Source: Sinohyriopsis cumingii
Taxonomy: Eukaryota; Mollusca; Bivalvia; Unionida; Unionidae
Assembly (NCBI GenBank): GCA_028554795.2
Contig: CM068828.1
Location: 15,738,814-15,802,813, forward strand
Direction of reading: 5' to 3'
DNA: 64,000 bases
Of this stretch, positions 5,099 through 34,348 are shown one piece after another. Position numbers and translations under genes: made by a program. Position 1 is the first letter of the stretch. Every line of letters starts with the position of its first letter. The notes beneath the pieces were generated by a model. It saw nothing but the letters and a program-made list of their open reading frames with translations. It was not told the DNA's origin and made no database searches.

Positions 5099-5480
5099 AG
5101 TGTAGTGGGGCACTATAGCGACAATTGGATTTCTGTGTTAAAATGGGGGGTGGGGGTGTACCCTGGCGACAAGGGGAATTTAACATGGGTAAATTTAACA
5201 TGGGTGGGCCTATAGAGCGACAAAAAATACTGGGCCAGTACAGCGACAAGGGTATGGGTCTGTTTAGCGACAATTAGAATTGACGTCATGGTACTGGCCA
5301 CTAGTAACAAGGGGATGACCTTAATCGGACCAAACAGCGGGAAAAAAACTAGAACGCTTGGCAGGACTGACATAGAACTGGATAGACATAGACATATACA
5401 TAAGGACGTAACAAATTTTTAGGCAAGAGAGCAAATTTTTGCGAGGCAATGTAGTGGCCCTGAAAAGAACCTTTGGGTTA
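5099..5480 (+). repeat. Element A left terminal inverted repeat
   Basis: Matches the inverse complement of the right end with scattered mismatches. Shared blocks include CTATAGAGC, GGGTATGGGTCTGTTTA, TTGACGTCATGGTACTGG, CTTGGCAGGAC and GGCAAGAGAGCAAAT. At its inner edge it contains a histone-type stem-loop on the minus strand (5456-5471). Confidence 0.9.
5456..5471 (-). terminator. Histone-mRNA-type 3' stem-loop SL1
   Basis: On the minus strand this reads GGTTCTTTTCAGGGCC: a 6-bp stem (two G-C, two U-G, one C-G, one U-A) and a UUUC loop. That fits the metazoan replication-dependent histone consensus GGYYYUHHUHARRRCC. The upstream flank is CCCAAA and the downstream flank ACTACA, close to the canonical CCAAA and ACCCA. 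The purine box downstream (GCAAAAATTTG) is weak. It lies 126 nt beyond the stop of the small gene at 5597-5875 and inside the left TIR. Confidence 0.75.
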
Positions 5481-5596
5481 CTTTTTCTTCTAATTTCTTC
5501 CTTGTCTTTTGATTTGCAACAGCACCTTATCTTCCCTATCACATTCTTCTTTTTCTTCTACTATTTTATCCTCCTCCTCCTCTTCTTCCTTTTCCA

Positions 5597-5875
5597 CTAT
5601 CTCTTCATTTTTCTTTTTTCATTTTCCTCTTCTTTTTCAATCTTAGCATTCCATACTCTCACATGTTCTTTCTCCTCTATATCTTCCTTTTCCTCCTTTT
5701 CCTTTTTAATCAGCTCCTTTACTATATCTTTGCCTTTCTTGAAATTATTTAACTCCATCTTCACACGATGTACGCTATAGAACCCATAATAATCCTTCAC
5801 CATCATTTCCTCCAACATCCCAAGCGTATCTAGTACCTCCTCCAATTTCATCATCTTCTCCATGTTGATGGCCAT
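5597..5875 (-). CDS. Small Lys/Glu-rich helical protein (cassette gene 1)
   Basis: An intact 92-residue frame, unlike most of the element. The first 30 residues are Met/Leu/Glu-rich (MEKMMKLEEVLDTLGMLEEM) and the last 40 are nearly all Lys, Glu and Arg, predicting a charged helix or coiled coil. No family was recognised. A promoter-like block lies directly upstream (5881-5928) and a histone-type stem-loop downstream (5456-5471). The same arrangement recurs at genes 2 and 3, whose N-termini are also short, Leu-rich and charged, so these look like paralogues. A DNA- or virion-associated charged protein is possible but is inference only. The complementary Phe/Ser-rich frame is a shadow. Confidence 0.6.
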   Translation of the reverse strand: MAINMEKMMKLEEVLDTLGMLEEMMVKDYYGFYSVHRVKMELNNFKKGKDIVKELIKKEKEEKEDIEEKEHVRVWNAKIEKEEENEKRKMKR

Positions 5876-5880
5876 CTTCG

Positions 5881-5928
5881 TTTTATTCCGTGTAGAATGG
5901 CGCGAATGATGACGTAAAGGAAAACATC
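5881..5928 (-). promoter_or_regulatory. Shared promoter-like block P1
   Basis: Read on the minus strand it starts GATGTTTTCC, continues through TTACGTCATC and CGCGCC, and ends in GGAATAAAACGAAG just before the start codon of cassette gene 1. The same word order occurs upstream of genes 2 (7201-7249) and 3 (7999-8042): GATGTTTTC, CGTC, a CGC word, then an AATAYAAA box and CGAA. Confidence 0.55.
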
Positions 5929-5998
5929 CCTTACACTCACTTCACATATTACCTACTATTCACACATAAGGGAAGGGGAAAAAACCACAACATCTACA

Positions 5999-6470
5999 AT
6001 CCACACAAATGTACGCGAACGCATACAAACACACTCTAATATCCACACACACGGGAAGGAGAAAGAGCAAACGCCAAATATGCTATCCACACAAGGGAAG
6101 GAGAAAAAAAAACAACAAACCAAATAAACTATCAACACACATGAAGGAGCAAAAATGAAACCCATTATCTAATATCCACACACGGGAAGAGGAGAAAAAA
6201 ACCACTATCTACTATCCACACACGGGAAGGAGCAAAAAAACAAACCCCAAATCTACTATCCACACACGGAAAGAGAACAAAACCACAATACCTACCATCC
6301 ACACAAACGTAAGCGAACGCATACAAACACACAGTCTACTATCCACACATGGGAAGAGGAAAAAAAAACCTCAAATATACTATCCACACAGGGGAAGGAG
6401 AAAAAACAAACCCAAAATATACTATCCACACAAAGTACGCACACGCATAAAAACACACATACACACAAAC
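5999..6470. repeat. Minisatellite of about 42 bp between cassette genes 1 and 2
   Basis: About 11 imperfect copies built around TATCCACACACGGGAAGGAG plus an A-rich and CAAAC segment. Copies start near 5999, 6032, 6081, 6129, 6175, 6213, 6260, 6297, 6339, 6381 and 6424, with a period of about 33-48 bp. It ends in CACA-rich sequence near 6500. The Val/Cys-rich frames across it are repeat artefacts. Confidence 0.85.
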
Positions 6471-6602
6471 GTACACGCACGCACACAAACACACAAACAC
6501 AGACATACACATGTCAGGAAAGGAGTCTGTGTTTATAATCACACTGCTCCACATTCACACTAACTGGCAACTTGAATAGTTTCTTTTTCTAGAGATCTGG
6601 GT

Positions 6603-6618
6603 AGCCCTGAGAAGGACT
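6603..6618 (-). terminator. Histone-mRNA-type 3' stem-loop SL2
   Basis: Minus-strand AGTCCTTCTCAGGGCT: six paired positions (A-U, G-C, U-G, C-G, C-G, U-A) and a UCUC loop. It is followed immediately by ACCCA, exactly the canonical 3' flank. About 13 nt further on is AGAAAAAGAAA, a good histone downstream element able to pair with U7 snRNA. It terminates cassette gene 2. Confidence 0.75.
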
Positions 6619-7151
6619 GGTTTTTTGTCGAACTCGAAATGAACCTCTCTTAATGGTGGCAACTCCCTGGTCTGGCGCCACAGACACGTCGCCGGCTCCA
6701 GCCCTGCTTTCAACTGATGCGTGTGGTTGGGAGCGCAGAGGGAGGTTGATTGGTTCCACTACCCCACTCCTTCGTTTGAGGGATAGTGAACATTTTGTTG
6801 TTGTTGTTCCCTCTGTCTTCTGTGCCAAACTCGGGGATAAACTGGAATCCTTGTCTCCTGTGGACGCTGTCCTGGTTGTTGTGGCTGTGGCTGCGGTTGA
6901 TGTTACTGTGGTGGTGCTGCTAATGGTTGTGGAGACGTCCTCACATCAGGCTTGACCTCACACAAAGGTTTCAGCATGAGGTAAGGAAGGATCCCTATCT
7001 TCTTTTCCTCTTATTCTTTCTTTATCCTGTCCTCCTCCTCTTCCTCAACTCTAGCTTCTTCGGCTGTGGCCTCCATAGCCAGCTCATCTTAAAGACGCCT
7101 GGCATATTCCAGGTGCATCTGGAGTTCCTTAAGCTTGGTGAGTCTGCTCAT
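6619..7151 (-). pseudogene. Cassette gene 2: charged, Gln-rich protein with stops
   Basis: The frame begins at an ATG (7149-7151) reading MSRLTKLKELQMHLEYARRL and then meets a TAA. Read through, it continues as a Glu-rich coiled-coil segment, a Gln/Pro repeat segment and an Arg-containing end. At least three in-frame stops, each one transition away from a Gln codon, suggest simple decay. Start, promoter block (7201-7249) and stem-loop end (6603-6618) match the layout of genes 1 and 3. Function unknown. Confidence 0.5.
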
Positions 7152-7200
7152 GTTGTTGCAGTTGACGGATCAACGATTGCTAGCCAGACTGACGATCGCT

Positions 7201-7249
7201 TTCGCTTTCGCTTTATATTTGTGAAGCGGGGACGTGAAGAAAAACATCC
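7201..7249 (-). promoter_or_regulatory. Shared promoter-like block P2
   Basis: On the minus strand: GGATGTTTTTCTTCACGTCC, then CCGCTTCACAAATATAAAGC, then three GCGAAA-like words. AATATAAA is a plausible TATA box about 75 nt before the cassette gene 2 start codon. It aligns word for word with P1 and P3. Confidence 0.6.
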
Positions 7250-7547
7250 ACTGTCACCAAAACGTACAAGACCCACATTACTATCCATCAAATGGAACGC
7301 GCGGACCTAAAATAAACACGCAATCACTTTTTACCTACAATCACTAGCTACAAATAAAAGCACACAGACTGTTTGACAAGTTAAGGAAACGAAGTGTTGA
7401 TAGACACACTTCCACTTCTATTTTTTATTACATAAAACAAAGAAACAAAGTGCTTATATACACACTATATTTTTTTAACGTACAGACAAACACAAATGCA
7501 CAAATTTTGCCAATTGGACTAGTATCTCTTTTCTAGAGTATTGGGAT

Positions 7548-7563
7548 AGCTCTGAAAAGGGAT
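7548..7563 (-). terminator. Decayed histone-type 3' stem-loop SL3
   Basis: Minus-strand ATCCCTTTTCAGAGCT keeps the UUUC loop and the 3' stem arm AGAGCU, but two of six pairs are mismatched. The downstream flank is ATCCCA, followed by CTCTAGAAAAGAGATAC, the best purine box of the set. It lies 31 nt past the stop of cassette gene 3. Confidence 0.6.
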
Positions 7564-7593
7564 GTTTTGTGGACGGGAAGTTATAGCAATCTT

Positions 7594-7959
7594 TTATCGT
7601 CTAAGATTGCGTCCCCGTCTGGTGGCAGGTTTTCCCACAGGATAAGGTCTGATTCTTCGGAAAGAGCAGGAGAACTCTTTCGTGTCTACACGGCAGTCGA
7701 CTAAAACAACTGTCTGGTTCCTGCTGTTGTTGCTGCTGCTCTCTCTGCTCGCTTTGCTTCTGAAGTCTTTACTTCTCGGTCAATTCTTTTTTCTCCTTCT
7801 TGATTTCCTCTCTGAAGACCTCTTCTATCAGGTCTTTGGCCACTTTCAGCATCCTGACATTCTCTCTATCTCTTCAGACTTGGGTATCAGGCTTTGCCTG
7901 TGACGATGCAAATGCAAGTAGGCTTCATTTAGTTTAGCTAAATTAGAAGGCATCTTCAT
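7594..7959 (-). pseudogene. Cassette gene 3: charged, Gln-rich protein with basic tail
   Basis: It starts at 7959 (MKMPSNLAKLNEA). A Lys/Glu-rich helical segment follows, in a shifted frame after about 7858. Then come a Gln-rich segment (from a CTG/TTG-type repeat) and a basic C-terminus ending near GKPATRRGRNLRR at the stop (7594-7596). At least one frameshift and one stop interrupt it. Promoter block upstream and histone-type stem-loop downstream as in genes 1 and 2. The basic tail would suit a nucleic-acid-binding core protein, which is inference. Confidence 0.5.
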
Positions 7960-7998
7960 AGGTTGACGAGTCAACAGTGGATGGTCAGACTGCAGACT

Positions 7999-8042
7999 GT
8001 TTCGTTTTGTATTGTTCAAGCGCGGACGCGACAGAAAACATC
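7999..8042 (-). promoter_or_regulatory. Shared promoter-like block P3
   Basis: Minus strand: GCGATGTTTTCTGTCGCGTC, then CGCGCTTGAACAATACAAAA and CGAAACAG. AATACAAA stands where P2 has AATATAAA. It lies about 40 nt upstream of the cassette gene 3 start. Confidence 0.55.
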
Positions 8043-8311
8043 GCTAAGATTTTTGTTGGGTAGGAACACTATAGAGTTTATCTTAGGGTGAGGGATAGAT
8101 TAGAAGTCAAAGATCATGTATAATGATAAAAATTGAAAACAAACGACAGACACATTTTTTCAAAACAACATTTTTATTCAAATAACTAACAACCAACAAT
8201 CAACAATAAAACAAACAAAATATTGTTGACAAGGTTGACAAGGTTGTGAAGTGAAGTTAGATTTCTATTGATGGAAGTCATTGGACCATTGATGTACGCT
8301 ACGTTTCCTAG

Positions 8312-8768
8312 CTAAAGACAAAATATAGCCATAATGGTCCAAAACCATCGATCTACTTTGTCATCGTTTCTAGAAGAGTTATGATCAAAATAAGTCACTA
8401 AATTTTCAAAGGGATATCCAAGACTGCGTTGATAAAGAAAATACAAACAATATTGTCCACATACCATGGAATCTGTGCCTTGTAATTTCGCATTATTGAA
8501 TCGTGTCGTCTGGACATTTCTTCTCACAAAGTCGATGATGTCGTCTTCCAAAGGTGGCAATGCATACGAATCAAAATACTCCATACAACCCTCTTCATGG
8601 AAGTAGACGGCTACGCAATGGGTTCCTGGGAGATGACTGTCGTCCGTATTGAGGCATGAACTTGATGGTCTTGAGGTTTGCGATTTCATCTTTAGCAAAC
8701 ACGATATAATTCCAAGACGCAGTGTACCAACTATGCTTCAAAAGGTAATAAAGTTCCCAGGTATCCAT
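8312..8768 (-). pseudogene. PRO: Adenovirus-type (Ulp1-like) cysteine protease
   Basis: In Polintons this enzyme is thought to mature virion proteins. The C-terminal 128 residues are open and contain the catalytic series: His in SHLPGTHCVAVYF (the usual Trp after His is Cys), Asp in MEYFDSY, and Cys in MVCGQYCLYFLY. The N-terminal 40 residues, from the ATG at 8768 (MDTWELYYLLKHS), lie in another frame, so there is a frameshift near 8640-8670. The family is normally about 150-200 residues, which fits 8312-8768. It directly follows the 8738-9274 gene, overlapping it slightly. Confidence 0.85.
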
Positions 8769-9274
8769 TTTTTGTTTTCTTGTTTTTTTTTTGATAGATA
8801 ATGATAAGTCACCAATTCAATCCTGACTTTTTGCTTGAAAATCTCTGACAAGTAACCTTTCCTTTTCCTTGTCTCCCCACTCTGAGGAAAGAGAGCTTCT
8901 ATGTGATGGATCTCTAGAGCCATCAATGGAGGAGAGGAATGATCATGCAGGTGATGCAACACTGCCGAGATAAGACCACAAGAGTCCTCCAGATACTCGT
9001 CCAATGTTTCGTTTTGACTCATCATCATACATTTGTCGTGTTGAAGTTGACTATCCCGATCGTTTTGACATCCATAGAAATCTTTCTTGATCAACTGCGT
9101 AATTTGTTCTACCACGTGTTTAGCAAAACAGGAGACTAAATGGTTTTGTTCTGGCCATCTGGACCTCATCACTTTGTCCTCCACGGGTCTTTTGTCGTCC
9201 ACGACTTTCACGATATCCTTCCATTCCCTTTACAAAGAGTCTCGATCATTCAAAGATGGATACGTGTCTTCCAT
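8738..9274 (-). pseudogene. Unknown Polinton gene between capsid and protease
   Basis: A long open stretch (8738-9211) encodes about 157 residues. A credible start at 9274 (MEDTYPSLNDRDSL) is separated from it by one in-frame TAA. The protein is hydrophilic, His- and Lys-containing, with no domain I recognise. Its position between the capsid fragment and the protease suggests a virion-related gene. Overlap with the protease start implies both were translated from a compact minus-strand cluster. Confidence 0.5.
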
Positions 9275-9284
9275 AGCTTCTAAT

Positions 9285-9796
9285 AGTCTAGAATGACTTC
9301 TCTAAACTGTTGATTTCTATCGTATTGTCAAATTCGGCATACAAGACGACGTTCTCCGTGTGGGGTAGACCTTCTGCAGACTGATGTTCCACACGTATCT
9401 GACCGGATTTTATAGGGTGGAAATGTCCCTCGTCACTGCCTTGGTCTGGAGTGAAATCAAATGCCCACTATGTGTAACTCCTGCATAATCGTCGCACGAA
9501 ATGCTGTGATTGCTGTTGGTCCCTAACTGTCCCATGGCTTCGTACATGGACAAGTACGACCTCAGGTAATTTTTCTGGGCAAAGTTAGGCTCGAAGGGTC
9601 TGGTACACAAAGTCTTGCCATCGCGACTGACTTCGATTTAGGACACTCTGTAGTGCTTAAATTGGAAAGGCTTTTGATCGTGGGCTCCGTTGAGTGCTGC
9701 ATTGCTAACGATGCCCACGATTAAACGTTTGGGTAACTGTCCTTGGAACAGATGATTTTCCGACTTGGAAGAAGCACAAGACTCTCTGTGCATCAT
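9285..9796 (-). pseudogene. Major capsid protein, C-terminal part only
   Basis: From MMHRESC at 9796 the translation carries hallmarks of the Polinton double-jelly-roll capsid family: a PKRLIVGIVSNAALNGA segment, then PFQFKHYRV, then a YLSMYEAMGQLGT segment and a terminal strand region. At least two stops or frameshifts interrupt it. Family members are much longer (several hundred residues). The N-terminal half is not found upstream, where the pVI-like gene ends at 9866, so most of the gene seems deleted. Confidence 0.7.
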
Positions 9797-9865
9797 TTTT
9801 CTGTCTGTGGTTTTTAATAATCAAAAACGTGTAAGTCTCGGTGGGTTCTTCTTTTCTTGGTCTTT

Positions 9866-10260
9866 CTAGCTCTGATGGTATGAAGTGCTCTTGAGGGGTG
9901 TATTCGTCGTCTCTTTCTGCCTCGTCTTTGCTGTGACGTCAGGGAAGCTAGGAATGCCTGACTCAGCAGCGTCCAGGGCATTTATCGGAGTTTCTCGTCG
10001 GCCTAAAATGTCCTTACCCGTTTGAAGCAAAACATTTTTGCCTGCTCTCATGAAAGTTTCTTTGGGGTTTTGTTTGTCGAAGAAATTCTTTGCGGTGCGT
10101 CAGCGCGACATCTTTCAAGGCATGCAATGTTCGTGTCACCATCGGTTTCAAAACGGGGGCCACAGAACGAAACGCCGATTTCAACATATCTCCCAAACCA
10201 TGTCCTCGCTGTCGAACGACTACTTGGTACACAGGATACATGACTTACGAGTCGTTAGAG
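9866..10260 (-). pseudogene. pVI-like minor virion protein
   Basis: The N-terminus carries QRGHGLGDMLKSAFRSVAPV, a Gly-rich turn followed by an amphipathic helix. This is the signature of adenovirus pVI/pX-like membrane-active proteins found in Polintons. A Lys/Arg-rich middle and a C-terminal segment (GKDILGRRETPINALDAA) follow in a second frame, with a frameshift near 10040. It lies between the penton-like gene and the capsid fragment, the usual virion-gene neighbourhood. Confidence 0.65.
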
Positions 10261-10316
10261 AACCGTTTTCGAAAATGGAGTATCACTGTGACTTTCCCTT
10301 TGGTGAAAGTAATACT

Positions 10317-11121
10317 TTATTCCAGATCTCCTTTTATAGCAATGTTGACAGTGTAAAAATCCGACTTCCTGACGGGTAAATACTTAAGATGTACACCTTC
10401 GAGGTGAACGTGATAGGTGTTTCCACCTTCCTCGTCAGTGGTCGTGCCAGAATCAACTTTGAAAGGAATGACACGCAGTAACGGTACGGAGGTGTGACCC
10501 ACCATTTTGTACTCCACCACATCAAAGTACACACAAATCAAATTGAGAACTTTATTCAGTTCTACAGGGAATCGAAAATACTTCGCGAAATCTAAGTTGT
10601 TGGCGATGAATGGTACAGACTCACCTAGCTTAATCATTTTGACATTCCTACCAAAAATGTCAAACAATTCGGGACAAAATTGAATGGCCAACGTTTTTTT
10701 ATCTGGAAATTTCATAAGTAGGCGACGAGCTACTCTATGGCACTCCAGGGTGACACTGCATTAATCTGTCAGCAATCGTGTCCACCAAATTTTTACCGCT
10801 AAAATAATGGACTGCCGAAATTTTCACAGTATGGATGTACCGTGGAGTAGTGGGGGCTACTTGTAGTTTCTTAGAGTCATCTACAGTTGGATTTTTATCC
10901 AAGTACTCTTGCAAATGGGCATCTAGAACTTCAACCTCAAAAGTGTTTTGCTTTTCAGTGATGTTTTTGATTTGTGTAGGGTGAATCACTTCCCAATGGG
11001 CTTCGTGATCTAATTGGATAGCCTGAGGTAATTTGGCCGTGAAACAGCACAAGGTAATGCGGAGAAACACCTCCATGGAACTGTCACGGGATAGCGTCAA
11101 GTAAAATTGGTTGTTGTTCAT
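10317..11121 (-). pseudogene. Penton-like minor capsid protein
   Basis: Begins at 11121 with NNQFYLTLSRDSSMEVF, followed by a region ending in LDHEAHWEVIHPTQIKNI. This pattern (FY-TL-S start, P-I-L segment, W-EV) marks the widespread Polinton single-jelly-roll penton candidate. Two frames, 10735-11121 and 10317-10715, together give about 260 residues and are separated by a frameshift near 10720. The second half contains beta-strand-like alternation and ends in YTVNIAIKGDLE. Confidence 0.65.
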
Positions 11122-11346
11122 AATTCCAGAGTTCTGCTGTCCGAGGGTTCACACGAAGTCAGAGGAGTGTCTTAAAGAGGATTGTTATTGTTGGAGTGGC
11201 GACTGTTGGAAGGGTGACTGACAATGGACGCAAGGCTCCCATTGTTCCCGTTAGACGAGTATTTCAGGGAAGGATTGGGAAGAAGGTAACCGATGAAACT
11301 GCTAAGTAAAATGGTTCACAATTGCTCCAAACTCAAATTGGCAATG

Positions 11347-11520
11347 TCAGCACAGAAGACACAATACACCACAAAGATTCGGCAAAAAAGACGATTTGCG
11401 TTTTAGGCACAAGTTTTCTACACCACACTCACAAAAGGGTTGCTTTTGTAGATCTTGCAGAGAAGAACTGGGTGAAGGAGAGGTCACGGTTGTAGTGGCA
11501 GCTGAGGCTGTGTTGAAGGG
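11347..11520 (-). other. Short ORF of unknown meaning between penton-like gene and integrase
   Basis: A frame of about 58 residues, Ser/Thr-rich at first and Cys-rich at the end (FCECGVENLCLKRK). It could be a small metal-binding protein or a decayed gene end. The rest of 11122-11528 shows nothing I recognise. Confidence 0.25.
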
Positions 11521-11528
11521 CTTGATGG

Positions 11529-12653
11529 TCACTTCTTTTTATAGTCAATGACTTGCGAAGCGTCGATCGAAGAATCAAAACTGGGAGGATATAATTTCCA
11601 ACGTACTTTGACTTCTTTGACACGTCGTTTTCCAACTTTACGGGTTCTTCGTTCGAGAATGTTTTCGATGTCGTACGCTTCGTTTTCTTTTTCGGTTACA
11701 CCTTGTAACTCGGGCAAGTAAAACGTTACTTTTAACACTCCCCCGTTCTTGATGTCTTCCAATTTATAGACGTCAGGATGATGGTCACACACTCGTCCAG
11801 TGACGCGAAACAATTTAGTGGTCCAGTTGGGAAAGTAACCTTTGTCGAAAGTGCGTTTAGTTTTGCCACTGCGCACCCAATCTCCTGTTGCTAATACTCC
11901 ACCTTTCTTGGGGACTTCCATCATCGGGGACGTACCAAAACAGGCGCTCAAAAACAGTCACTTTGTTGTCGGTATTCACTTCTTGGGGCGCAGATCCGAT
12001 GTTCCAATGATAAGATTGGTTGTACGCTTGGATCAGATGAGGTAAGACGTCGATTTATTTAGAGAGTGTGTTGATGCGTAAAATATTTCTACATGCGTTC
12101 TTTCAAGGTGCGTTGAAAACGTTCCAAGATGCTGGCTTTGGTTTCGGGATTCCCGGTGGTGAAAAAATGAATGTCACGTTTCGTTAATTCTTTTTGGAAA
12201 GCTTGGTTCAGAAATTCGGTGCCTTTGTCGGTTGATATCAAAGAGGGTGACGACCACTTTGTTAAACACCAGTTGGAGGGCTCGCACTAGCTCACTGCTC
12301 GATTTGGAAGTCAATGGCACGACCAAAGCAAATTTAGAAAAGACGTCGATGACACAAAACAAATATTTGTAACCACGATTGTAAGTGGCCAAATGAGAGA
12401 CATCGGCTAAATCGGCTTGCCATTGATGATCGATGCCCTCCACTCGGGTGCGACTTCTGAGAAATGTTCGTCAAATGGGCTTGTGTATGGTGTCCGTGGT
12501 TTGTTCTTGTTCCCTGGAGACTTTTAAGTCGAGTTTTGACAGCCTGATACAATTTCTGAACTCTTCCGTAACCTGCAGGATGGGATGGTTCGTAATAAAT
12601 GTTGGTTAACACCTTCTCCGGTTTTTGTTAATAAGTCATCCACACTTCACTGA
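11529..12653 (-). pseudogene. INT: Integrase (DDE type) with C-terminal chromodomain
   Basis: The N-terminus contains IYYEPSHPAGYGRVQKLYQA, the zinc-binding-domain side of Polinton integrases. The catalytic triad is present: first Asp in HQWQADLADVSHL (codons 12408-12419), second Asp in STDKGTEF (12227-12229), Glu in SILERF (12122-12124). The last two are exactly 35 residues apart. The C-terminal frame 11529-11951 ends in a chromodomain-like strand (KEVKVRWKLYPPSFDSS). Frameshifts occur near 12440, 12250 and 12000, so the gene is broken although the active-site residues survive. The family inserts the element and makes 5-6-bp target duplications. Confidence 0.88.
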
Positions 12654-12928
12654 TGCTACTCTTTTTTCGTGTGGTATTTTCTTGGATTGTAATGCTTTGC
12701 GTGTCCGGTGAGCAATAGGTATCGGATAGGAGGATGTCTGAACAGGGGTAATTGGTTCTTGTTTCACTTATGTCTTTACCTTCCTTTTCTCTTCTGTGGA
12801 AGAAGGGGTGGCCATCATCTTTTTAATCCATCGAATTCTGGATGTAGGTGGTGTTGTTAATATACGTACGTTCTCTGGTGGTGTAGTTAACTTGCGTACT
12901 TTTTTGGTGGAGTTTGAAACTCTTCTTC

Positions 12929-13216
12929 TCATGTTTCTGTCGGGGTCACTGGGGGTAGTGGTGATTGACTTTTCATCAGGGTCTTAAAATCTTTCAGAGT
13001 CGGCTGAGATGTTTCGTCTACAGCTTTCTGGTGAAAGAGTTGCAGTCGTTGCAACACTTGACCGTATCGTTGCGATTTTTCCGTTTCTGACAAATTGCTT
13101 TGATCCATCAACGATTGCAGTTCATGTTGTAACTGGGAGATCACGGTCAAATGAGGATTTCGAGGTAAGTGAGGGGTATTCTTCTTGCCAACGATGGAAT
13201 TCCATCCTTCATATGT
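12929..13216 (-). pseudogene. Short coiled-coil protein upstream of integrase
   Basis: The well-formed part reads VISQLQHELQSLMDQSNLSE followed by a KSQRYGQVLQRLQLFHQ helix. This heptad-like pattern (short Leu-rich helix, SETEK turn, Tyr-rich helix) recurs in small genes of Polinton and adintovirus-like elements. A start at 13216 requires one frameshift. Role unknown. Region 12654-12928 shows only decayed coding-like sequence. Confidence 0.4.
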
Positions 13217-13499
13217 AAGGCACTAAATTCAGGTCACGCCCTTGAATCAGATTCTAAAGGTTAAAGCTGAGATCTTTTGACCCCTAAGACCTCCTATTAT
13301 CTTCTTGAGCGTTTTAATCTTTGATTCATCCCTAGTGAATTAGCAGCTTCAACAAGTCCTGTAATCAGGATGCCTATGGGACTTTGAGTATGGGGGCTAA
13401 CGACAAGTTGTATTAAAATCTTTTTCTTTTTATTGATGAGTACTTTCTTTTGGACCATCTGGCGAAGATCGTGTCGATGCTTGCCTAATCATTCTTTTT

Positions 13500-13790
13500 G
13501 ATGGGGAGACAAATGTATCGTGCCTTTCAAGACATTAAGACAACATTCGCACACGGTATCGACGACATCTTTGGAGACTGTTTGAATGATTTTGTTTTCG
13601 CATGGGTGAAGGGGCTTTGGACAGTACGGATATCACGTCCCAATGTTTTGCTAAATGGGGAGAAGTCTTTTCCTTCTCTTTCCTTTGGGGGTAGAAGAAG
13701 GATGGCTCCTGGGGGGGTGTCATCTTTGTTAGTTCCGGAGCACACAAAAAACGCACTTACGTCAATGACTTGGTACAAGTCCTTTTATTT
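13500..13790 (-). other. Hypothetical ORF, local paralogue of 13960-14200
   Basis: An open frame of about 83 residues including GAILLLPPKEREGKDFSPFS. Its nucleotide neighbourhood resembles that of 13960-14200 about 400 bp away: CACAAAAAAC, AAGTC(C)TTTTAT and GGGGTCTTTTC words recur in order. The two therefore look like a tandem gene duplication. No domain was recognised. Confidence 0.35.
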
Positions 13791-15104: not shown

Positions 15105-15118
15105 AGTGTCCGTGGTTT

Positions 15119-15861
15119 TTATAGATTTTGTTTGTTATGTCGATGGGGACGTTTCACGACAGGCCCTCCGAAGGGGACGTGACACGGAAGGCCCTCTGTC
15201 TTGGCACCAGTGGTAAAACAAATGGGTACGAAATAGCAAATAATTGGGGCTGATAGTTTTAAATCTACTAGTAAATAGGCGCGTGGGGTTTGAGTGATTC
15301 GTACGCATGAGTCAGCCAAGGCGTTCCTAACTGTTAGGCTAAGATATGCACTTGCAATTTATCTGTAGGGTTTTTAAACAAGACCACGTAATGAGCATTG
15401 AGACTGATGCTGCGATGGGCTTTACTTTGTTGAGACAAACTGTGGGTTATATAAATGACACTGGCGCGTAAACCACAGTTTATTTTCGTCTTCGTCTTCT
15501 CCTAAGATGTCGTCGAAGATGACCATATGTGTTTGACTAGGGTTAGACACGACCCCGTCGTCTTCGCTAGGAATGCCTTCCACAACCAAGATGGAATCGC
15601 CTTGACTTTCTCGCAAGAGACTGTACGCCGCTTGCCACACTTTGTAACACCAAACCATCCACTGAGGTGGACGATCGATCAAATGATGTTCATGTTCGAT
15701 CAAACGTTTGACAATTGCGGTTGGCCTGAACCGCTAGGTCCGGCAATTAACATGTTAAAAGGATGGCGAAGATACAATGCCTCCCAACAAGCACGATCTA
15801 AGTGTTCGTCGTTGACTTTGAAAGTGAAAGAAGAGGGATCAAAGACGGCATAGGTAGTCAT
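15119..15861 (-). pseudogene. ATP: FtsK/HerA-type genome-packaging ATPase
   Basis: It starts at MTTYAVFDPSSFTFKV (ATG 15859-15861). A P-loop follows at 15718-15741, reading GPSGSGQP, so the Lys of the usual GxxGxGK(S/T) is Gln and the Ser/Thr is Pro. A Walker B segment MVIFDDIL and downstream helices occupy 15422-15703. The C-terminal frame 15119-15319 ends KRPHRHNKQN. About 247 residues in all, the normal length. A frameshift lies just after the P-loop (about 15705-15717) and another near 15320-15420. The altered P-loop Lys would abolish ATP hydrolysis in this family. Confidence 0.85.
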
Positions 15862-15877
15862 AGTAGTGCAGAGAATG

Positions 15878-16533
15878 TCACTTTTGACACGAAGACAGAT
15901 AAGACAAAAGTTTTGTATAAATTTTTCTGGACACGTTTATTGGAAGTTCAATTAGAACAACACGAAAGACAAAAATACGTAAAAGCCACAAGGTTAAGTA
16001 CAGCGATAAAATTCGCATCAAAACGATCAAAGTGAAATATAAACAAGTCACTGTACAACATGTTTTAGGTAACAATGTTGTCCTACGGACAGTGTGTAAT
16101 TTTCTTACAGTCTCTACATAGGACACTGTCACACAGGTGTCCTTCCGAAATGGTCTTTCGGGAATGTGCATGACAGTCCTGTCCTGAAGGGAATTGTTTT
16201 CCACGGTGACGAGTTCTTCATCTGACACTGTCCCTAACATGGGTTTAAATGTTACTTTGATCACTGGACATTTGAATTTAGGATCACAAATCTTGCGCAT
16301 AATTGGTCACTTCTTTGGTCCAAGCCTCGAAACCCCAAATTTTTCAGTCACGTACATCTGTCCAGTGAGGGTGTAAGTCACAAGCTACACACACATCGTC
16401 GCACACATCTTCAATACCTAAAAGTTGACGAATATCTTTTTTCCGTAGAGGTCGAGAAGAATACAAATGAAAGTGCGAGGCTTTTAACAGATTGAGTCTC
16501 TCGTGGACATTAAAAAGTACCACTTTCATATTT
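15878..16533 (-). pseudogene. Hypothetical Cys-containing protein
   Basis: Begins at 16529-16533 with MKVVLFNVHERLNLLKASHF, then IRQLLGIEDVCDDVCVACDL containing a CxxxCxxC cluster. It continues in shifted frames with KCPVIKVTFKPMLGTVSDEE and ends near 16090. The remainder to 15878 is low-complexity hydrophobic sequence and probably not coding. It sits between the ATPase and another small gene. Role unknown; the Cys cluster may bind metal. Confidence 0.35.
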
Positions 16534-16559
16534 TTTGGCGGTACCTCACTGTGAAGATT

Positions 16560-16754
16560 TTACAGATCCCACAAGGAATCTGATGGTAAACGAAATCTCA
16601 GAAAGCAAGTCACTAAGACACACAGTACACGATGACCCAAATTTATCGGATACAGTGCTGGTAATAACTGTTGGAATTCCTCCACTGTCTGAATACTGTC
16701 ATTGATTTCCTTCCACTGCAATCGTTCTATCACGAGTGATAAAGGTCGTGGCAT
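16560..16754 (-). CDS. Hypothetical 64-residue protein
   Basis: An intact short frame from ATG 16754 (MPRPLSLVIERLQWKEINDS) ending LRFRLPSDSLWDL. It sits 13 nt after the end of the upstream gene, fitting a compact gene cluster. No family recognised. Confidence 0.4.
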   Translation of the reverse strand: MPRPLSLVIERLQWKEINDSIQTVEEFQQLLPALYPINLGHRVLCVLVTCFLRFRLPSDSLWDL

Positions 16755-16766
16755 GGTAGTCTGTTT

Positions 16767-17190
16767 TTATACCTCTTTTTGTCGGATGTAATAAGTGTAC
16801 TTTTTGCACAAAACTGATCGTTCACCGTCATCGCATCCAAATCGTTTAGTCACTGGTTCACACGTCAAACATCGCACAGAATTTCCCTCTACAGACAAAA
16901 TGTGATAGTGTAAAAGATTTTGGTAATCCTTTAACTCTTCCGTTGGAATTCGATGTAGTATGACCACCTTGCAAGTAGTAGGATGAGTAGCCAACAAAGT
17001 CTTCTAGTCCTCGTCCAGTTCAACAATGTCTGACCAGTAGAACGTTTTCGAATGAATCAGTCCTCTTATGCCATTCAGGTGCCAGTGATTCCAACATCAG
17101 TGACCTAACAGATTCAATAGACTTTTCGTTGGACTTGTCTTTTGACCAACTCTCGGTAAATGGGTTCCAGAGGTAGATTCTGAATGTCCT
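16767..17190 (-). pseudogene. Tandem-duplicated unknown gene, copy 1
   Basis: The intact end reads HRIPTEELKDYQNLLHYHIL, then SVRCLTCEPVTKRFGCDDGE and an LCKKYTYYIRQKE tail, with two CxxC-like Cys sites. The upstream part is broken by stops. Nucleotide words (GACCAACTCTC, AGTCCTCTTAT, GTAAAAGATTTTGGTAATC) match copy 2 at 17216-17640 in the same order, so it arose by local duplication. Confidence 0.5.
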
Positions 17191-17215
17191 CTTCTAAACT
17201 ATACATTCATGGCAA

Positions 17216-17640
17216 TGTCTTTGTTTTGTTTGAAGTAATAAGTGCACTTTTTGCAGAACTGATCGTACTCCAGTAGCGAATTGAGATTTTTAGTCACTAG
17301 TTAGCACATTACACATCGCACAGGATTTTCTTCTACAGACAAAATTTGACAGCGTAAAAGATTTTGGTAATCATTTAACTCTTCCTCTGGAATTCGTTGT
17401 AGTACGATCATCATGTTAATAAAGGGATACGTAACCACCAAAGTATGCTGGTCCTCGTCTAGTTGAACAATGTCTGACCATTGGAACGTTTTCAAATGAA
17501 TAAGTCCTCTTATAACATTCAGGTACCAGTGGTTTCCAACATTGGTGACGTAACGGATGCAATTGTTTCTTGCCTTTCACTTGTATCTTGACCAACTCTC
17601 AGTAAATGCGTTCTCTCAACTCCACAGGCAAACCACGAAT
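17216..17640 (-). pseudogene. Tandem-duplicated unknown gene, copy 2
   Basis: Contains FQWSDIVQLDEDQHTLVVTY and QRIPEEELNDYQNLLRCQIL followed by PVRCVMC, clearly paralogous to copy 1 about 450 bp downstream. An LPVELRERIYWELVKIQ segment at its start overlaps the end of the 17599-17868 gene. It has frameshifts. Function unknown; the paired Cys suggest a small metal-binding module. Confidence 0.45.
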
Positions 17641-17868
17641 GTTCTCTTGTAACGTATCCATCCAGAGATTACTGAGATCGTCCCAGTAAAGGTAGATAAT
17701 GACAATCCATAGACCATTGAACATGTTCCAGGTAAGCCGAATCTTCTGCTCCCACTCGTGAAGTGACACACCGAGACTGAAACACTTGACTTTATCTCCT
17801 TTGCCGAAGTACATAAATCGGCTCTGGCTAATTCTTTGAGGGTATGTCCTCCAAGATATTTTGGCCAT
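17599..17868 (-). CDS. Hypothetical 89-residue protein
   Basis: An open frame from ATG 17868 (MAKISWRTYPQRISQSRFMY), continuing with an aromatic-rich segment (WNMFNGLWIVIIYLYWDDL) and ending LPVELRERIY. It overlaps the 3' end of the gene before it, in line with the tight minus-strand packing. No domain recognised; it may be fused to or read into the 17216-17640 gene. Confidence 0.4.
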   Translation of the reverse strand: MAKISWRTYPQRISQSRFMYFGKGDKVKCFSLGVSLHEWEQKIRLTWNMFNGLWIVIIYLYWDDLSNLWMDTLQENIRGLPVELRERIY

Positions 17869-18287
17869 TTTCGTCAGAACGTTTGGAATCGACTTTCAAA
17901 GTCGCAGTATTCAGGCAAACACACAGAGAACGAATATTCGCCTTTCCCAGGTTCATTTCGATGAGGGTACAATGACAGGAGCTTACTTGGGGTTGGATGA
18001 CATCCGTTGGATGGTAGCTGAATGGTTTCACGAGGAGGTTGACATCCACCATGAAAACCAGTAAAGAGTCCACGATAGCGAGTGGCATCGCTTTCGCATC
18101 TGTGAGGTTTGACACGCACATCATCAATTTCCATGGTGGGTGTAGTGGTACTAGTAGTCATAGTGAAGTTCTCATGATGTGGTGCTGAGTCGCTGAAGTC
18201 ACAGCGTACGGCATCCCTGCAATCGCAAGGCATATCATCGCACTCGAGTTTTCTCTCGCTTAATACTTGCTGTGAGAAAGGATTCAT
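17828..18287 (-). pseudogene. Hypothetical gene immediately after polymerase
   Basis: Starts at 18287 (MNPFSQQVLSERKLECDD, followed by a Cys-rich MPCDCRDAVRCDF segment) and continues in two alternating frames, so at least one frameshift is present. Its ATG overlaps the polymerase stop codon as ATGA, which supports both this start and the polymerase end. Function unknown. Confidence 0.4.
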
Positions 18288-21200
18288 CTTTTTCGCTTGG
18301 CGTTTGTATTCACAATGAAGTATCGGTCTTGAACGTTTTCCCCTTTATATGCTGGCCAATATCGGCGTGTCCGTAAAGTAAAGAAAAGTGACTGGGAAGC
18401 CGCTCTCGCTTGTGGTACACGATTTGATACACTTTTTCCAAAGGCCTACTGACGATTTGGTGTTTGGCTTAACGTACAATATTCTGAGACTAGTATGTGG
18501 TCACTTTAAAATTTGATCCTCTCCAGACCGCAAGGCTTCTTTCAGTACCCCAAAGTTCACCTCTTGACTGGTGCAATAATTGAGTCAATCCTTTGAGTTT
18601 ACACTCGGTGTGCACTTCTCCTTGTTGGTTCCGGTATTCGTAGCCGTAATTTTAGTACCGAAATTAGCAAACTGTATAATCTTGTTGTTGGGGTGCTGGT
18701 CCATCCAGGCGGCTAAACGGTCTCCTTCGATGTCAGGGTGCCGACGACACATGCGATCGACGCAGATGAAACTGTCCGTTTCAAAATACAGCACACGATC
18801 TCCTAACAGTTCTGCAACTTCGTACAACTTTAAGAGAGCATAGGCTGTCACCGAATGGTGACATTTCCAAATTCGTCAGCGTCTACAAAGTCCAGTTCAT
18901 CTTCGTAATTGACTAAGATCAAGTCCTCACGAAGAAAGTACACGTGTGTCATGTATTTGGTTTTGTCGTGAATCATCTGAAAGTAACGTGAAGGTTCTGT
19001 CAAATACTCCGTTTTGGGTAAACACGGTCGTTGTGCCATTTTTCCCCACAAGCAATTTTAACATCACTCTGCCAAACGATCGCCTTCCTTCGTTTTTCTC
19101 CACTTGGTCTAAAGCGATGCCTTCCTGCTCCAAGTATTTCTCATTGAATTTCTTTTGTTCTTCGTGAGTGTGGCATCAGGAAGGATAGCCGCTGACTTCT
19201 TGTTTCAGTTTCAAAAAGGCATCCAAGTAGTCTGCGAAAATGCCTTTCTGTGTCTCGTCACCGATGTGGTATTGTTCTGTCTTGGGAAGTGGTCAATTTC
19301 GCACACCTCTAACAATTGGTATCCCAGGACCAGAGCCTTAAACATTTCCACGCTGACCCACGTTCCTGTCAAGGCGCGTTCTTCCTGGGTGTGCTGATAA
19401 GGTCGGTCTTGGTTGCACGTTTCGGCAAACGTACGGCACATGGGAAACATCAGTTTTCCTTAGCAATGGTGAGGTAAAACGTGATGGTACAAGTCCGTGG
19501 GAGGGAAGACGTTGCACTTGACCAACCTCTCGTATTGTCGAATGTTTTCCAAATCAATGTGTTCGTCAGCAATTGCGGGTGCCCTGCGGAAAAGTGACAA
19601 TATTTGCACACGTAAGGATACAGTGAACACACGTCCAAGTATTTGATTTCTTCTCTTTTCTTCTCGTCAGCGTGGTGCAGTAAACATGTGACATTCGTCC
19701 TTCCTCCGTACAAACGGCCCCGTGGCTTTAGAGGGTCCACCAATTTGTAACTCTCCACCTTGCGTTTAAACTCGGGATCGGTTTTCAAACAGTGATCGTA
19801 CTTGTGTACCCACATTTCCACCTCTCGGCATCCTTGCTGTTCTAACTTCAAACATCGCTGAGAAGTAGCCTAGTACAAGTCTTCCATGGTCCTTTGTAAA
19901 ACCTGATTTTTAGTGCCAAGTTGAGGATAACAGATGGGTCATCCATGAAAGAATAGCCGTTAAACTCGTACACGATCTTAGGGTTTCCTAAGTCCCAACC
20001 ATCCACTGAATACCTTCTGGTTGTCTTTTCGCCTCCTCCGTTTCGGACATGTTGGATCCATTTGTTTTCCTTGTCGCACAAGTAATGTAGCCAGCGTAGG
20101 ACTTTGACCGAATATTGACGTTTGACAAAGTTCGTCGTTTGAGAGCTTCTGACAACCAGGGTGTTTTCGGGCATGAATCGTTGGCGGTACACTAAGGAAC
20201 ACGCTTTGGAAATGGTGCAGGTTTCTTTCAAAGGATCGATTCCTCCGTGCTCCATGAATAATTCTCGAAGTTTTCCACAGTAACGCCGTAAAATGTCTAC
20301 GTCGGAACGACTATGCTTTAATATGTCTTCCTGAAAGTAGAAGGGGTCTGAGGCGTAAGTCTAGTACCAAGCGTAGAAAGCTTCTCGTTGTTGGGTGCGC
20401 ACGTTGTCAGGGTCATAGTAGTGAGCCTCAGGCAAATGGGGTAAAACGGCGTGTTGATTGGTTTCGGTATTGAAAAAGTGCGGAAAATTACAAACGTTTT
20501 AGGTATTCGAATCAAAGGCATGGCCAAGTAACTTATCGAATCTTTAAATTGTGAGCCATCACCTTGGCATAGCGATGACAATCTCCGTAACGTTCGATAT
20601 CCTCTTGACTTCACGTCTTGCAGATGGGGTCTACGACCCATTGGGAGAAATCGGTCAGCGTGTTTAGTCCCCGAAATATTTTTCACGTCCTCTAGGAATC
20701 TTGCTACAGTGAGGGTAATGACTAAAGATAGATTCTTGGATGCACTTATCGCACGCTCAATGAGCCACGCAGAAAATAAAAATGTGAATGCCAGAATCTT
20801 GCATACATTCTAAATCGAAACAGATGAAATTCCCTTTGTCCTTCTTTTCATCTTCTTCGTGTTAGGGTTGGTATTTTTTAATGTAGCATTCGTGTTTCGA
20901 ATCCACGAGTTGGTGACAAAGGTGACATCGTTTTATTCCTGAACATAAGTGTGCCCTGGCATTATTGATACGTATGGCTTGTCCGCAAGTAGGGCACAAT
21001 TTCAGGAGTTGACAAACACTTTTCTGCTGTGAACTTTGCTTCTTCAGATGTTGTTGGTAACAGGTAGGACTGACAAAAGTACGCTGACAAGCAAGGCAAT
21101 GCACTCGTTCTTGTCCTTTTGTATCTTCTGTCTTTGAAATATTTGCATCGAATCAACAGATCTCCGCGCACATCTTGAAGGTTTACTTTCAACGTGTTTC

Positions 21201-21429
21201 GTAGAACCAAGAATCTTGCATTTGTTTGCATTTCAGGAATGCTACAGGGTGTGTCTTTGGATAGCCCTGATTGTTGTAACAGGAGTTCTGCTTCTCTTCG
21301 TTGGCTGTGGTTCTAAATTTTGTAGAGGAGGGGTCTTCCGTCTCTATAATGTGGTAGTACTTTTCAGGGTTTTGTGGTGGTGAGCTATGGTTGGGTGTAG
21401 ACTCTGGGTCTGGATTCCGGCTCACTCAT
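18284..21429 (-). pseudogene. POLB: Protein-primed family B DNA polymerase, frameshifted
   Basis: About 1,048 codons from ATG 21427-21429 (MSEPESRP) to a TGA at 18284-18286. In order: N-terminal Cys/His fingers (CLACQRTF, CPTCGQAI, CHLCHQLVDSKHEC) at 20880-21100; exonuclease motif CFDLECMQDSG (20808-20816 codes DLE); an SDVDILRRYCG segment; palm motif A DVCSLYPYVCKYC near 19620; RALTGTWVSVEMF; motif B around MWGKMAQR (19030-19050); motif C VLYFETDSF (18771-18782), where the first Asp of the usual DTD is Glu; and a KLKG-type segment at about 18590. At least seven frame changes break it. In Polintons this enzyme replicates the element from a terminal-protein primer. Confidence 0.92.
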
Positions 21430-21508
21430 GTCATCTTCGAAATCGCTGCCATGAATTTGAGCAGAGACTTCAGCTACTGTACGAGGCGATGAATCTTTTC
21501 TCCAAAAA

Positions 21509-22105
21509 ATGATACGATTGTTTCACTTTGACGGCAAACATACAAATGACTACATTTTAAATGGTATGGGTCCCTATATCCATGTCAGGACAGTGTCTTC
21601 CTGTATAAAGGTTCAGTGTCCTCCCTCCATTATTCATGTCACTCTCAATCCTACCAGAACGATGGAAGAACCAACAGAGATCGAACATCTGATCAGAGCT
21701 TTTGCGAGGTGTCATAAGAAAGTTTCTTCAGACAAACCGACGCACTACTCCCCCTCTTTTCGAGATAAAATTCAAGATACTTGCTATATCTGTAAGAAGA
21801 AAGGGCATTTGGCTACAGAATGTCCAGACAGTCTGAAAGCAAGGCAGGTGTCAGAAGAGAGGAGTCAAGATACATGCTATCATTGTCAAGAGAAAGGACA
21901 TTGGTCTTCAGACTGCCCTAAGAAACAACAGGAGCAAGAGGAAGAGAAGTGTTCCGAACAAGAAGAAGAAGAATTACCCTCCCCGAAGGAAGAATCCAGA
22001 CACGTCCAGGAAGAGACAGAAGAGAAGAAAAGAAGAAGAGGAGAAAGCGAGGAAGAAGAGGAAAAGCCTGTGAAAGTGAAGAAATTCGAAAAACAGAAAG
22101 GGTGA
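21509..22105 (+). CDS. CCHC zinc-knuckle protein, divergent from POLB
   Basis: An intact 198-residue frame on the plus strand, 80 bp from the divergent polymerase start. Two CCHC knuckles are visible: C92-C95-H100-C105 (CYICKKKGHLATEC) and C123-C126-H131-C136 (CYHCQEKGHWSSDC). A very acidic/basic tail follows, with runs of Glu and RRRG/KVKK patches. The true start may be M52 (MEEPTEIEHLIRAF), after which the sequence looks more protein-like. Zinc knuckles of this type bind single-stranded nucleic acid, as in Gag or CNBP proteins. Such a gene is not part of the usual Polinton core; it could be an acquired nucleocapsid-like protein. Confidence 0.75.
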   Translation: MIRLFHFDGKHTNDYILNGMGPYIHVRTVSSCIKVQCPPSIIHVTLNPTRTMEEPTEIEHLIRAFARCHKKVSSDKPTHYSPSFRDKIQDTCYICKKKGHLATECPDSLKARQVSEERSQDTCYHCQEKGHWSSDCPKKQQEQEEEKCSEQEEEELPSPKEESRHVQEETEEKKRRRGESEEEEEKPVKVKKFEKQKG

Positions 22106-22339
22106 ACAAAGACACAGAAGAAGTCTATAAACATTTTAAAGTGTTGTGTTGTGAATTGGATTGCATAATTTGTACTAGAATAGATCACACAGAAAACGTA
22201 AGTGTCTCTTGGTTGTGATTTTTAGAATAAGGATCTAAATTTACCCAATAATATACACACATCACGTGGCAGAAAAGATATTTTGAGTTTTGAATGATTT
22301 TGGCAAAATGGATACTATCTCTTTTCGAGAATAGTGGGT

Positions 22340-22355
22340 GGCCCTGAAAAGGACC
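22340..22355 (-). terminator. Histone-mRNA-type 3' stem-loop SL4 (best match)
   Basis: Minus strand GGTCCTTTTCAGGGCC satisfies every position of the metazoan consensus: a 6-bp stem with one U-G pair and a UUUC loop. The upstream flank is CCAAC and the downstream flank exactly ACCCA. It is followed after about 10 nt by TCTCGAAAAGAGATAG, a strong U7-type downstream element. It ends the minus-strand gene at 22384-22977. Confidence 0.82.
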
Positions 22356-22383
22356 GTTGGGTGTTTGTTTAAAAACAAACAAA

Positions 22384-22977
22384 GTGAGGAACGGGACACA
22401 ATCATTTTTAACCGCCTTAAGTCTTTGCCACGGCCATGGCCTACTTCTGGACTTGCTCCTGTCGATGATTTGATAGAAATCACTACGGCTGGTATCTTAG
22501 GTGTAGTAACAGGGTTGGGCTGTTTGGCTCGGGAAGGTCCTTTTCTCTTGGGCCGGATTAAAGAAGTCTGATATATTTGTTTCAGACTCCTTAACTCTGC
22601 CAAAATGTCTAAGAGTACCGTAACTGTTTGACCTTCTATCCTAGGCCTTGTTTCTCCTCTGATGGTGCTGCTTCTTCCTCTCATTTCCTTCTTATTGCCT
22701 CTTATTCTTCTTGCTGTTGCTGTTGAAGGATAAAAGCTTGTTTTGCTTCTTTCTGCTGCTGTAAACATTTCGTCAATTCTTCGTTCTGTCTCTGTTTCAA
22801 ATCCTCGACGTGTGGTAAGGAAGGAGAAGGTGGCGAAGGTGCTGATACCGGAACAAATTCTTGCGAAGAAGAGAGGAAATCCACTAAATCCCAATTAAAG
22901 TAAGTCTCTTCTGGGAGTAGGACTGTGCTGACTTTGGTTGCCACTGCTATGCCATCGCTTCTCGTCTCACTGCGCAC
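22384..22977 (-). pseudogene. Cassette gene 4: Gln-rich then basic protein, frameshifted
   Basis: The first frame (22702-22977) runs from STVLLPEETYFNWDLVDFL through a Ser/Pro linker to a coiled-coil and Gln-rich segment (KQAFILQQQQQEE). A second frame continues with a helical stretch (TVLLDILAELRSLKQIYQ) and a basic part (IRPKRKGPSRAKQPN). A frameshift or stop separates them near 22700. It ends shortly before SL4. Its layout (helical, Gln-rich, basic end, histone-type 3' end) parallels cassette genes 1-3, though the P-type promoter block was not seen upstream. Confidence 0.45.
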
Positions 22978-23243
22978 AGACCCTAGCGTATCTACGTAAG
23001 GAATGTGGCGTCACAGGCAGCTCTCTTCGGATTGGAAGACAGACTGTGACTGAATTTTGTAACGCTTGTTAGGATTGGTGGACAATCTCAATCCGTTTCG
23101 ATCCGCTCTTCCTCTCTTTATAACTGCGGTTCACTTCATTCCCCTCACCTGTTCTCGTCACAAGATGTTGACTAACGTTGAACCGTCATCCCTTGTATCG
23201 TTGACGCTGTTCGGACTTACCCATGTATGTCAGTCAGATCATC

Positions 23244-23333
23244 ATGGAAAATCATCCGGATCACCGATACGAGCGTTTGGAAAAGAAAAATCTATGGCGA
23301 GAGACAAGGCTGTCTGAAGAGAATCCTCATTAA
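23244..23333 (+). other. Candidate short plus-strand ORF facing the right TIR
   Basis: A 29-residue frame beginning MENHPDHRYERLEKKN, rich in charged residues like the start of the other cassette genes, and stopping at TAA 23331. It points outward to stem-loop SL5 at 23425-23440. It may be the decayed start of a plus-strand cassette gene mirroring gene 1 at the left end. Support is weak. Confidence 0.3.
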
Positions 23334-23419
23334 CGGTCCAGAAGCCAGAGGCAGTTTGAGGAAGAGAAGAAGACCTGTGTGATGCCCTCTATATTAAGGG
23401 AATGGCGTTGCCACAAAAG

Positions 23420-23802
23420 CCAACGGCCCTATTCAGGACCAAATAATTGCCTCGAAAAGATTTGCTCTCTTGCCTACATTTTTATGTCCTTATTTCTATG
23501 TTCATGTCTATGCTTATCCATTTCTATGGCACGTCCTGCCAAGCAGTCTAGCTTTTGCCCGCGCTATTTGATCATTGATGTCAGCCCTTGCCACATTATT
23601 GCCAGTGGCCAGTACCATGACGTCAATTCCAATTACTGATAAACAGACCCATACCCTTGTCAATGTACTGGCGTAATATTTTTTTGTTGCTCTATAGGCC
23701 CACCCATGTTAAATTTCCCCATGTTAAATTCCCCTTGTCGCCAGGGTACGACCCCTCTATTTTAACAGAAGTCCCATTGTCGCTATGGTGCCCAACTACA
23801 CT
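23420..23802 (-). repeat. Element A right terminal inverted repeat
   Basis: Inverse partner of 5099-5480. GACGTCA, CAGACCCATACCCTTGT, GGCCCACCCATGTTAAATTT and CTATGGTGCCCAACTACACT correspond to left-end blocks in reverse order. Confidence 0.9.
23425..23440 (+). terminator. Decayed histone-type 3' stem-loop SL5 in right TIR
   Basis: Plus strand GGCCCTATTCAGGACC: five of six stem pairs with one C-A mismatch and an AUUC loop. Upstream GCCAAC, downstream AAATAATTGCCTCGAAAAGA. It is the inverted-repeat counterpart of SL1, so each TIR carries an outward-pointing stem-loop. Confidence 0.55.
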
Positions 23803-34341: not shown

Positions 34342-34348
34342 TATTATA

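Follow-up and report, generated by a model that had tools for sequence, protein, structure and literature searches.

Does a virus-like transposon express some of its genes as if they were histone genes? This question is raised by a stretch of 64,000 nucleotides (nt) from the bivalve Sinohyriopsis cumingii (assembly GCA_028554795.2, contig CM068828.1, forward strand, positions 15,738,814 to 15,802,813; here called the window), which holds Element A, a decayed Polinton of ~18.7 kb (~5098-23803; coordinates are those of the window unless a locus is named). The original prediction had claimed that five sites in this element carry the stem-loop signal of replication-dependent histone mRNA 3' ends. 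On the evidence below we put the probability at roughly 85% that five small genes at the ends of this Polinton family are expressed in the manner of replication-dependent histone genes. The signal, its position, its specificity for these genes and the promoter elements held in common with histone genes can be read directly from the DNA; the genes would then most likely yield replication-dependent, non-polyadenylated mRNAs of the histone type.

All five sites lie where they had been placed. When window positions 1-30000 were scanned with 4227 Rfam families (E ≤ 10), Histone3 (RF00032, gathering score 34) was the sole family matched, at four sites that are all inside Element A and all score under the gathering score; the fifth site was located by alignment. 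In positions 30001-64000 no Histone3 match was found at E ≤ 10. The five stem-loops (SL1 to SL5), each together with its downstream purine box, are as follows.

5430..5476, minus strand: SL1, after gene 1, at the inner edge of the left terminal inverted repeat (TIR); Histone3 20.5 bits
6578..6623, minus strand: SL2, after gene 2, with A-U at stem position 1; Histone3 21.3 bits
7523..7568, minus strand: SL3, after gene 3; found by direct reading and alignment, not reported by Rfam
22315..22360, minus strand: SL4, after gene 5; Histone3 32.1 bits, E 1.1e-5
23420..23466, plus strand: SL5, after the right plus-strand gene, at the inner edge of the right TIR; Histone3 20.6 bits

SL3 (site 7548) is decayed, with two non-pairs in its stem, and has kept its flank and purine box and aligns with the other sites; SL5 (site 23425) has a single C-A mismatch. 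The purine box, predicted for most sites, is present as a U7-type, AGAAAAGA-like element and recurs in the relatives of Element A and in the host histone genes. SL1 and SL5 are one site in two copies by their inverted-repeat homology, which sets in 3 nt before the 5' flank of the stem-loop and extends to the ends of the element. Since the outermost stem-loops mark the onset of the TIRs, the end genes, which run outward, would stop just where the repeats set in. Counting substitutions against a fixed 24-nt pattern, we found three sites in Element A at ≤2 substitutions and one at 4, and none at ≤4 in the remaining 45 kb of the window. In 300 dinucleotide shuffles of the element there were 0 sites at ≤2 substitutions, 1 at 3 and 16 at 4; sites as good as the best three of Element A never arose.

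Genes 3, 2 and 1 stand in tandem at the left end of the element, and gene 5 and the right gene are divergent at the right end. The original prediction had placed four of the signals right behind small genes; in relatives this is borne out for all five genes, but in Element A itself their frames are broken.

5490..5875, minus strand: gene 1, product small and charged; frame broken, 128-132 aa where relatives keep it open
6624..7151, minus strand: gene 2; frame broken, end approximate, 121 aa in relative L086
7569..7953, minus strand: gene 3; frame broken, end approximate, 118 aa in relative L086
22370..23010, minus strand: gene 5; both ends approximate, 183-230 aa in full-length relatives
23165..23400, plus strand: right gene, divergent from gene 5; end approximate, 76-77 aa and isoelectric point (pI) 10.8-11.0 in relatives

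In Element A gene 5 has lost its stop codon and its frame continues through SL4. The representative proteins are small and mostly basic, with a pI of 8.6-11.0 (leaving aside L011, a partial gene 5 frame) and of 6.5 for gene 2. A Pfam scan of representatives of four stem-loop gene types, genes 2 and 3 not included, gave no match above the cut-off, histone or other, and in this the Polinton genes are unlike the host histone cluster. As a guess, some of the products might be DNA-binding core proteins.

Across the 2.9-Gb host genome the signal is found after Polinton genes, in related elements and in stronger form than first noted. Out of 589,472 first-look Histone3 candidates the best 75 were scored; all of them exceed the cut-off, with 45.6 bits for the best Polinton site. 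We examined the 30 best of these 75, each within its 3 kb. All 30 have an identical perfect stem, 26 lie beside matches to proteins of the Element A type, and no H2A, H2B, H3 or H4 match lies within the 3 kb of any of them. At 22 of the 30 an open reading frame (ORF) of at least 60 aa ends 7-27 nt upstream of the stem. As for the sites with no protein match, the ORF ahead of the stem at L004, L015 and L017 has a basic C-terminal tail similar to the one of gene 1, and at L019 an ORF ends 82 nt upstream.

To test this without reference to the signal, we selected gene 5 copies by protein similarity, using the 30 best of 150 scored matches, and counted a stem-loop at ≤2 substitutions within 250 nt. 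A stem-loop follows gene 5 in 27 of the 30 copies (29 at ≤3 substitutions) and the divergent neighbour, i.e. the right gene, also in 27 of 30. The CCHC gene convergent to gene 5 served as a control in 27 loci (the other three have no CCHC match) and gave a single match, which is gene 5's own stem on the opposite strand. A second control, the protease gene, was represented by 20 copies picked from the 150 listed and chosen before their flanks were seen: no stem-loop was found within the 450 nt examined, and AATAAA or ATTAAA follows 18 of the 20. Left ends were fetched from eight of these 20 protease loci, and six of them hold altogether 14 stem-loops after genes 3, 2 and 1, ten of which sit 15-41 nt past an open ORF of at least 70 aa. 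Sequence, position, this protein-anchored test and the two control genes thus all bear out a histone-type signal at the 3' ends of the genes.

The stems can also be compared with each other. We aligned 70 of 71 genome stems with the five window stems (75 in total, 54 distinct); L033 was dropped from the pair count because an insertion shifts its gene 5 stem. Over these 75 stem-loops 91.4% of the stem cells pair, compared with ≤65% when the partner is slid, in an alignment that leans towards structure since the stems were located by pattern. There is one clear two-sided change: position 1 is G-C in the stems of genes 1 and 5 and of the right gene, but mostly A-U in those of genes 2 and 3. Covariation by itself is weak to modest evidence. 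For gene 5 the mean majority frequency over 34 sequences is 0.77 in the stop-to-stem spacer, against 0.88 for the purine box, 0.93 for the stem and 0.96 for the 3' flank. The stem thus contrasts in conservation with the spacer and not with all of its surroundings.

The histone genes of the host offer a direct comparison. They are arranged in 8.3-kb tandem units, and the scored H4 matches comprise 109 full-length and 4 partial or weak ones. One unit, L081, contains H4, H2B, H2A, H1 and H3, each with a stem-loop of 35.0-39.4 bits. The distance from stop codon to stem is 27-38 nt in the host histone genes and ~15-41 nt in the Polinton genes, and the purine box stands at the same place with similar letters in both. 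The resemblance to the host cluster comprises promoter elements, stem-loop, purine box and stop-to-stem spacing. As in a replication-dependent histone 3' end, a 26-nt stem-loop with its flanks is followed ~10-15 nt on by a purine box, the genes are short, and the best genome copies exceed the gathering score; unlike such ends, these are borne by genes of a virus-like transposon and not by histones. Alignment of the SL4 region with the host H2A 3' end gives 76% over 87 columns, that of the SL3 region with the H2B 3' end 80% over 41 columns, and that of a Polinton with the H2A 3' region 80% over 64 columns. The flanks are not the same: the 5' flank is AAAGG in most Polinton copies and AACGG in four of five host histone stems (SL4 and SL5 of Element A have AACGG, as in the host), and the 3' flank ACCCA, found in many Polinton copies, occurs in none of the five host stems. 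The Polinton signal is therefore not a fresh copy of one host histone gene, and an old copy stays compatible with these differences. A TCAATTTTGCCA-like stretch ~45 nt past the stem is common to host H2A (L081:2278-2297) and a Polinton (L086:1660-1677); as a 20-nt match to the same H2A stretch also occurs outside Element A (around window 29494, E 0.63), this sharing may be due to chance.

The similarity to histone genes extends to the promoters. The left-end genes have a common 25-bp element, which is followed after 4-8 nt by a TATA-like box in 11 of the 22 cases. At ≤4 substitutions it is present in all eight left-end loci (22 sites), twice in Element A and nowhere else in the window; the 30 gene 5 loci are free of it. 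It recurs in the histone unit of the host, ahead of H2B and H1, with a weaker inverted copy upstream of H2A. The individual elements are listed here.

8020..8044, minus strand: gene 3 promoter element resembling the one of host H1/H2B, 4 substitutions away from the Polinton pattern
7226..7250, minus strand: gene 2 promoter element resembling the one of host H2B/H1, at 3 substitutions and followed after 8 nt by a TATA-like box
7296..7316, minus strand: second promoter element before gene 2, the H4-like element; 20/21 identical to the host H4 promoter
L081:8256-8276 and L086:1068-1088: H4-like element in the host histone unit and in a Polinton
L081:791-816 and 4193-4218, plus strand, and L086:1138-1163 and 1938-1963: H2B/H1-like element in the host histone unit and in a Polinton

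Host H2B and the Polinton L086 are identical over 24 bp (twice in L086), with 25/26 for H1, and the H4 promoter is identical over 21 bp to the Polintons L086 and L087. With the reversed histone unit as control no comparable match was obtained, the best (E 0.004) being a window sequence outside Element A. A promoter of another kind, divergent and with TATA boxes, TGACGTCA and two ATTGG boxes, serves gene 5 and the right gene; its layout is reminiscent of divergent histone gene pairs. This short divergent promoter lies at window 22900-23165 and is also seen at loci such as L013 and L030.

Two recruited factors, the stem-loop-binding protein (SLBP) and the U7 small nuclear ribonucleoprotein (snRNP), act on the 3' ends of histone pre-mRNAs, which are cut ~5 nt past the stem. 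According to PMC2781718, factors are brought in both by the stem-loop and by the purine-rich downstream element, a single cut is made between these two, and the resulting mRNA is tail-less and regulated with replication. From this known pathway we infer the use of SLBP and U7, the absent tail and the S-phase timing for the Polinton. The left-end genes would be transcribed from promoter elements of the kind found ahead of host H2B, H1 and, for gene 2, H4, and each short transcript would end ~15-41 nt past the stop codon in the 26-nt stem-loop and the U7-type purine box. On the pre-mRNA the stem-loop would be recognised by SLBP and the purine box by U7 snRNP, and cleavage ~5 nt beyond the stem would release a tail-less mRNA that is produced, translated and kept stable chiefly while the host is in S phase. 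In the protease gene of the family an ordinary poly(A) hexamer takes the place of the stem-loop signal. It is quite likely, in our judgement, that the whole histone programme, i.e. promoter together with stem-loop and U7 box, has been adopted, such that the small proteins would be made in S phase alongside host chromatin assembly and the other genes would be expressed through ordinary mRNAs.

Several results speak against histone-type expression of these genes. AATAAA or ATTAAA lies ≤250 nt from the match end in 23 of the 30 gene 5 copies, typically 84-110 nt beyond it, and a poly(A) tail is therefore possible there. Hexamers are found after the divergent gene in 3 of 30 loci and after the CCHC control in only 5 of 27, so that they separate the gene classes poorly and the contrast is clear for the protease only. 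Two of the eight left ends (L085 and L091) have no stem-loop. The covariation score was reached by 10 of 500 shuffles and the two-sided pair count by 351 of 500; the coding end of gene 5 and the positions 111-150 nt on both have a majority frequency of 0.89, which makes the stem only somewhat higher. As to the host factors, the best U7 match (29.3 bits) stays below the cut-off, and a guessed U7 pattern gave one exact match with no hairpin seen and 34 matches against 59 in the reversed control. No SLBP exon was matched in the host, but no control was matched in the same search either. No relatives were found in viral and prokaryote contigs, and the genome comparison covers one host genome.

The repeated motif might instead be a C-terminal protein motif (frame P-x-V-L-F-R-A-T) and no RNA signal. 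In the window a single frame through SL1, SL2 and SL4 gives a similar peptide, and the gene 5 frame crosses SL4. However, the stop codon stands ahead of the stem in most genome copies of gene 5, the other genes with open frames mostly stop ahead of it as well (22/30 best matches, 10/14 at left ends), and where frames do read through they differ between gene 2 in L089 and gene 5 in the window. Among gene 5 relatives in metagenomes, 18 of 19 proteins end ahead of the stem-loop position, and on this ground the peptide reading, which has hardly any probability left, was rejected. The 19th relative, P0018, continues past that position, and its additional residues are compatible with a stem-loop and purine box translated in frame, as judged by codon reading and not from DNA.

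A role of the hairpins in cis, in replication, packaging or transposition, would suit the two that lie at the inner edge of the terminal repeats, where TIR homology starts at the stem-loop flank. We consider this very improbable, since three of the five hairpins are internal, all stand in sense orientation right after stop codons and are accompanied by a histone purine box, an arrangement seen in the host histone genes as well. The signals could also be passive remnants of histone regulatory DNA captured at an earlier time, with the genes now being polyadenylated. The similarity to the H2A 3' region, the exact promoter 24- and 21-mers, the host-type flank at SL4 and SL5 and the hexamers downstream of gene 5 all agree with such a history. 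Yet stem, flank and purine box are near their functional form across five genes and many copies, the spacer of gene 5 is more variable than its stem, and the AAAGG and ACCCA flanks do not look like fresh copies of histone genes, which leaves passive remnants an unlikely explanation, and histone-type expression the preferred one.

The assignment of Element A to the Polintons rests on its size, its long TIRs and its gene pieces, namely a type B polymerase, an RVE integrase with chromodomain and a candidate gene of the cysteine-protease type; size and gene set are as given for Polinton/Maverick elements in PMC4028283. Unlike in those elements, small terminal genes are here combined with histone-type promoter elements and 3' ends. 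The remaining features of Element A are the following.

5098..5479: left TIR, running from SL1 outward; by repeat alignment
23417..23803: right TIR, running from SL5 outward; by repeat alignment
8315..8737, minus strand: protease piece (control gene with no stem-loop)
11529..11951, minus strand: candidate chromodomain piece adjoining the integrase; Pfam Chromo 0.0011, under the curated cut-off
12177..12470, minus strand: RVE integrase core, a broken piece; Pfam rve 3.2e-6, under the curated cut-off
19450..19851, minus strand: type B DNA polymerase piece, frame broken; Pfam DNA_pol_B_2 1.1e-6
21509..22105, plus strand: CCHC zinc-knuckle gene, convergent to gene 5 (control with no stem-loop)

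The TIRs measure ~380 bp and share 79% identity over 398 columns. Peptidase_C5, the adenovirus protease family, is matched weakly (0.086) by the protease relative P0001, and the window piece has no Pfam match. Among the pieces of Element A there was no Pfam match to a double jelly-roll capsid protein or an FtsK-like ATPase. A 6-bp target duplication is a feature of Polinton/Maverick elements; the 6-mers flanking Element A, AAAAGT and ATTCCT, differ, and the element is old and decayed. Between genes 1 and 2 lies a GT-rich imperfect minisatellite (5942-6494), and a direct duplication of 246 bp at 83% occupies 16845-17090 and 17289-17534. Two more decayed Polinton-like stretches are present in the window (30000-39000 and 50000-60000), with a weak match to a double jelly-roll capsid protein at 33233-33853 and a weak integrase match at 50521-50958; in neither stretch was a Histone3 match or the promoter element found. 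The family is very large, with 36,309 first-look candidates for gene 5 and 33,339 for the protease in the host genome. Nearly all of the 150 best scored protease copies have no internal stop and show ~91% identity to the query, which suggests recent activity of the family.

Within the open literature a Polinton with histone-type gene expression appears to be new: we found no open-access paper that links Polintons with the histone stem-loop, histone mRNA or SLBP, subscription journals and most preprints being outside this coverage. The 2009 paper (PMC2781718) describes the stem-loop as unique to histone mRNAs and SLBP as not implicated for other genes. If our interpretation is true, the Polinton would be a non-histone user of the SLBP/U7 pathway, although the histone 3' end is held there to be private to histone genes. 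It would also have a way to time its genes to the DNA replication of its host, and this would explain why such genes would escape poly(A) RNA-seq. When Polintons are expressed, and by what route, could thereby be put to a direct test.

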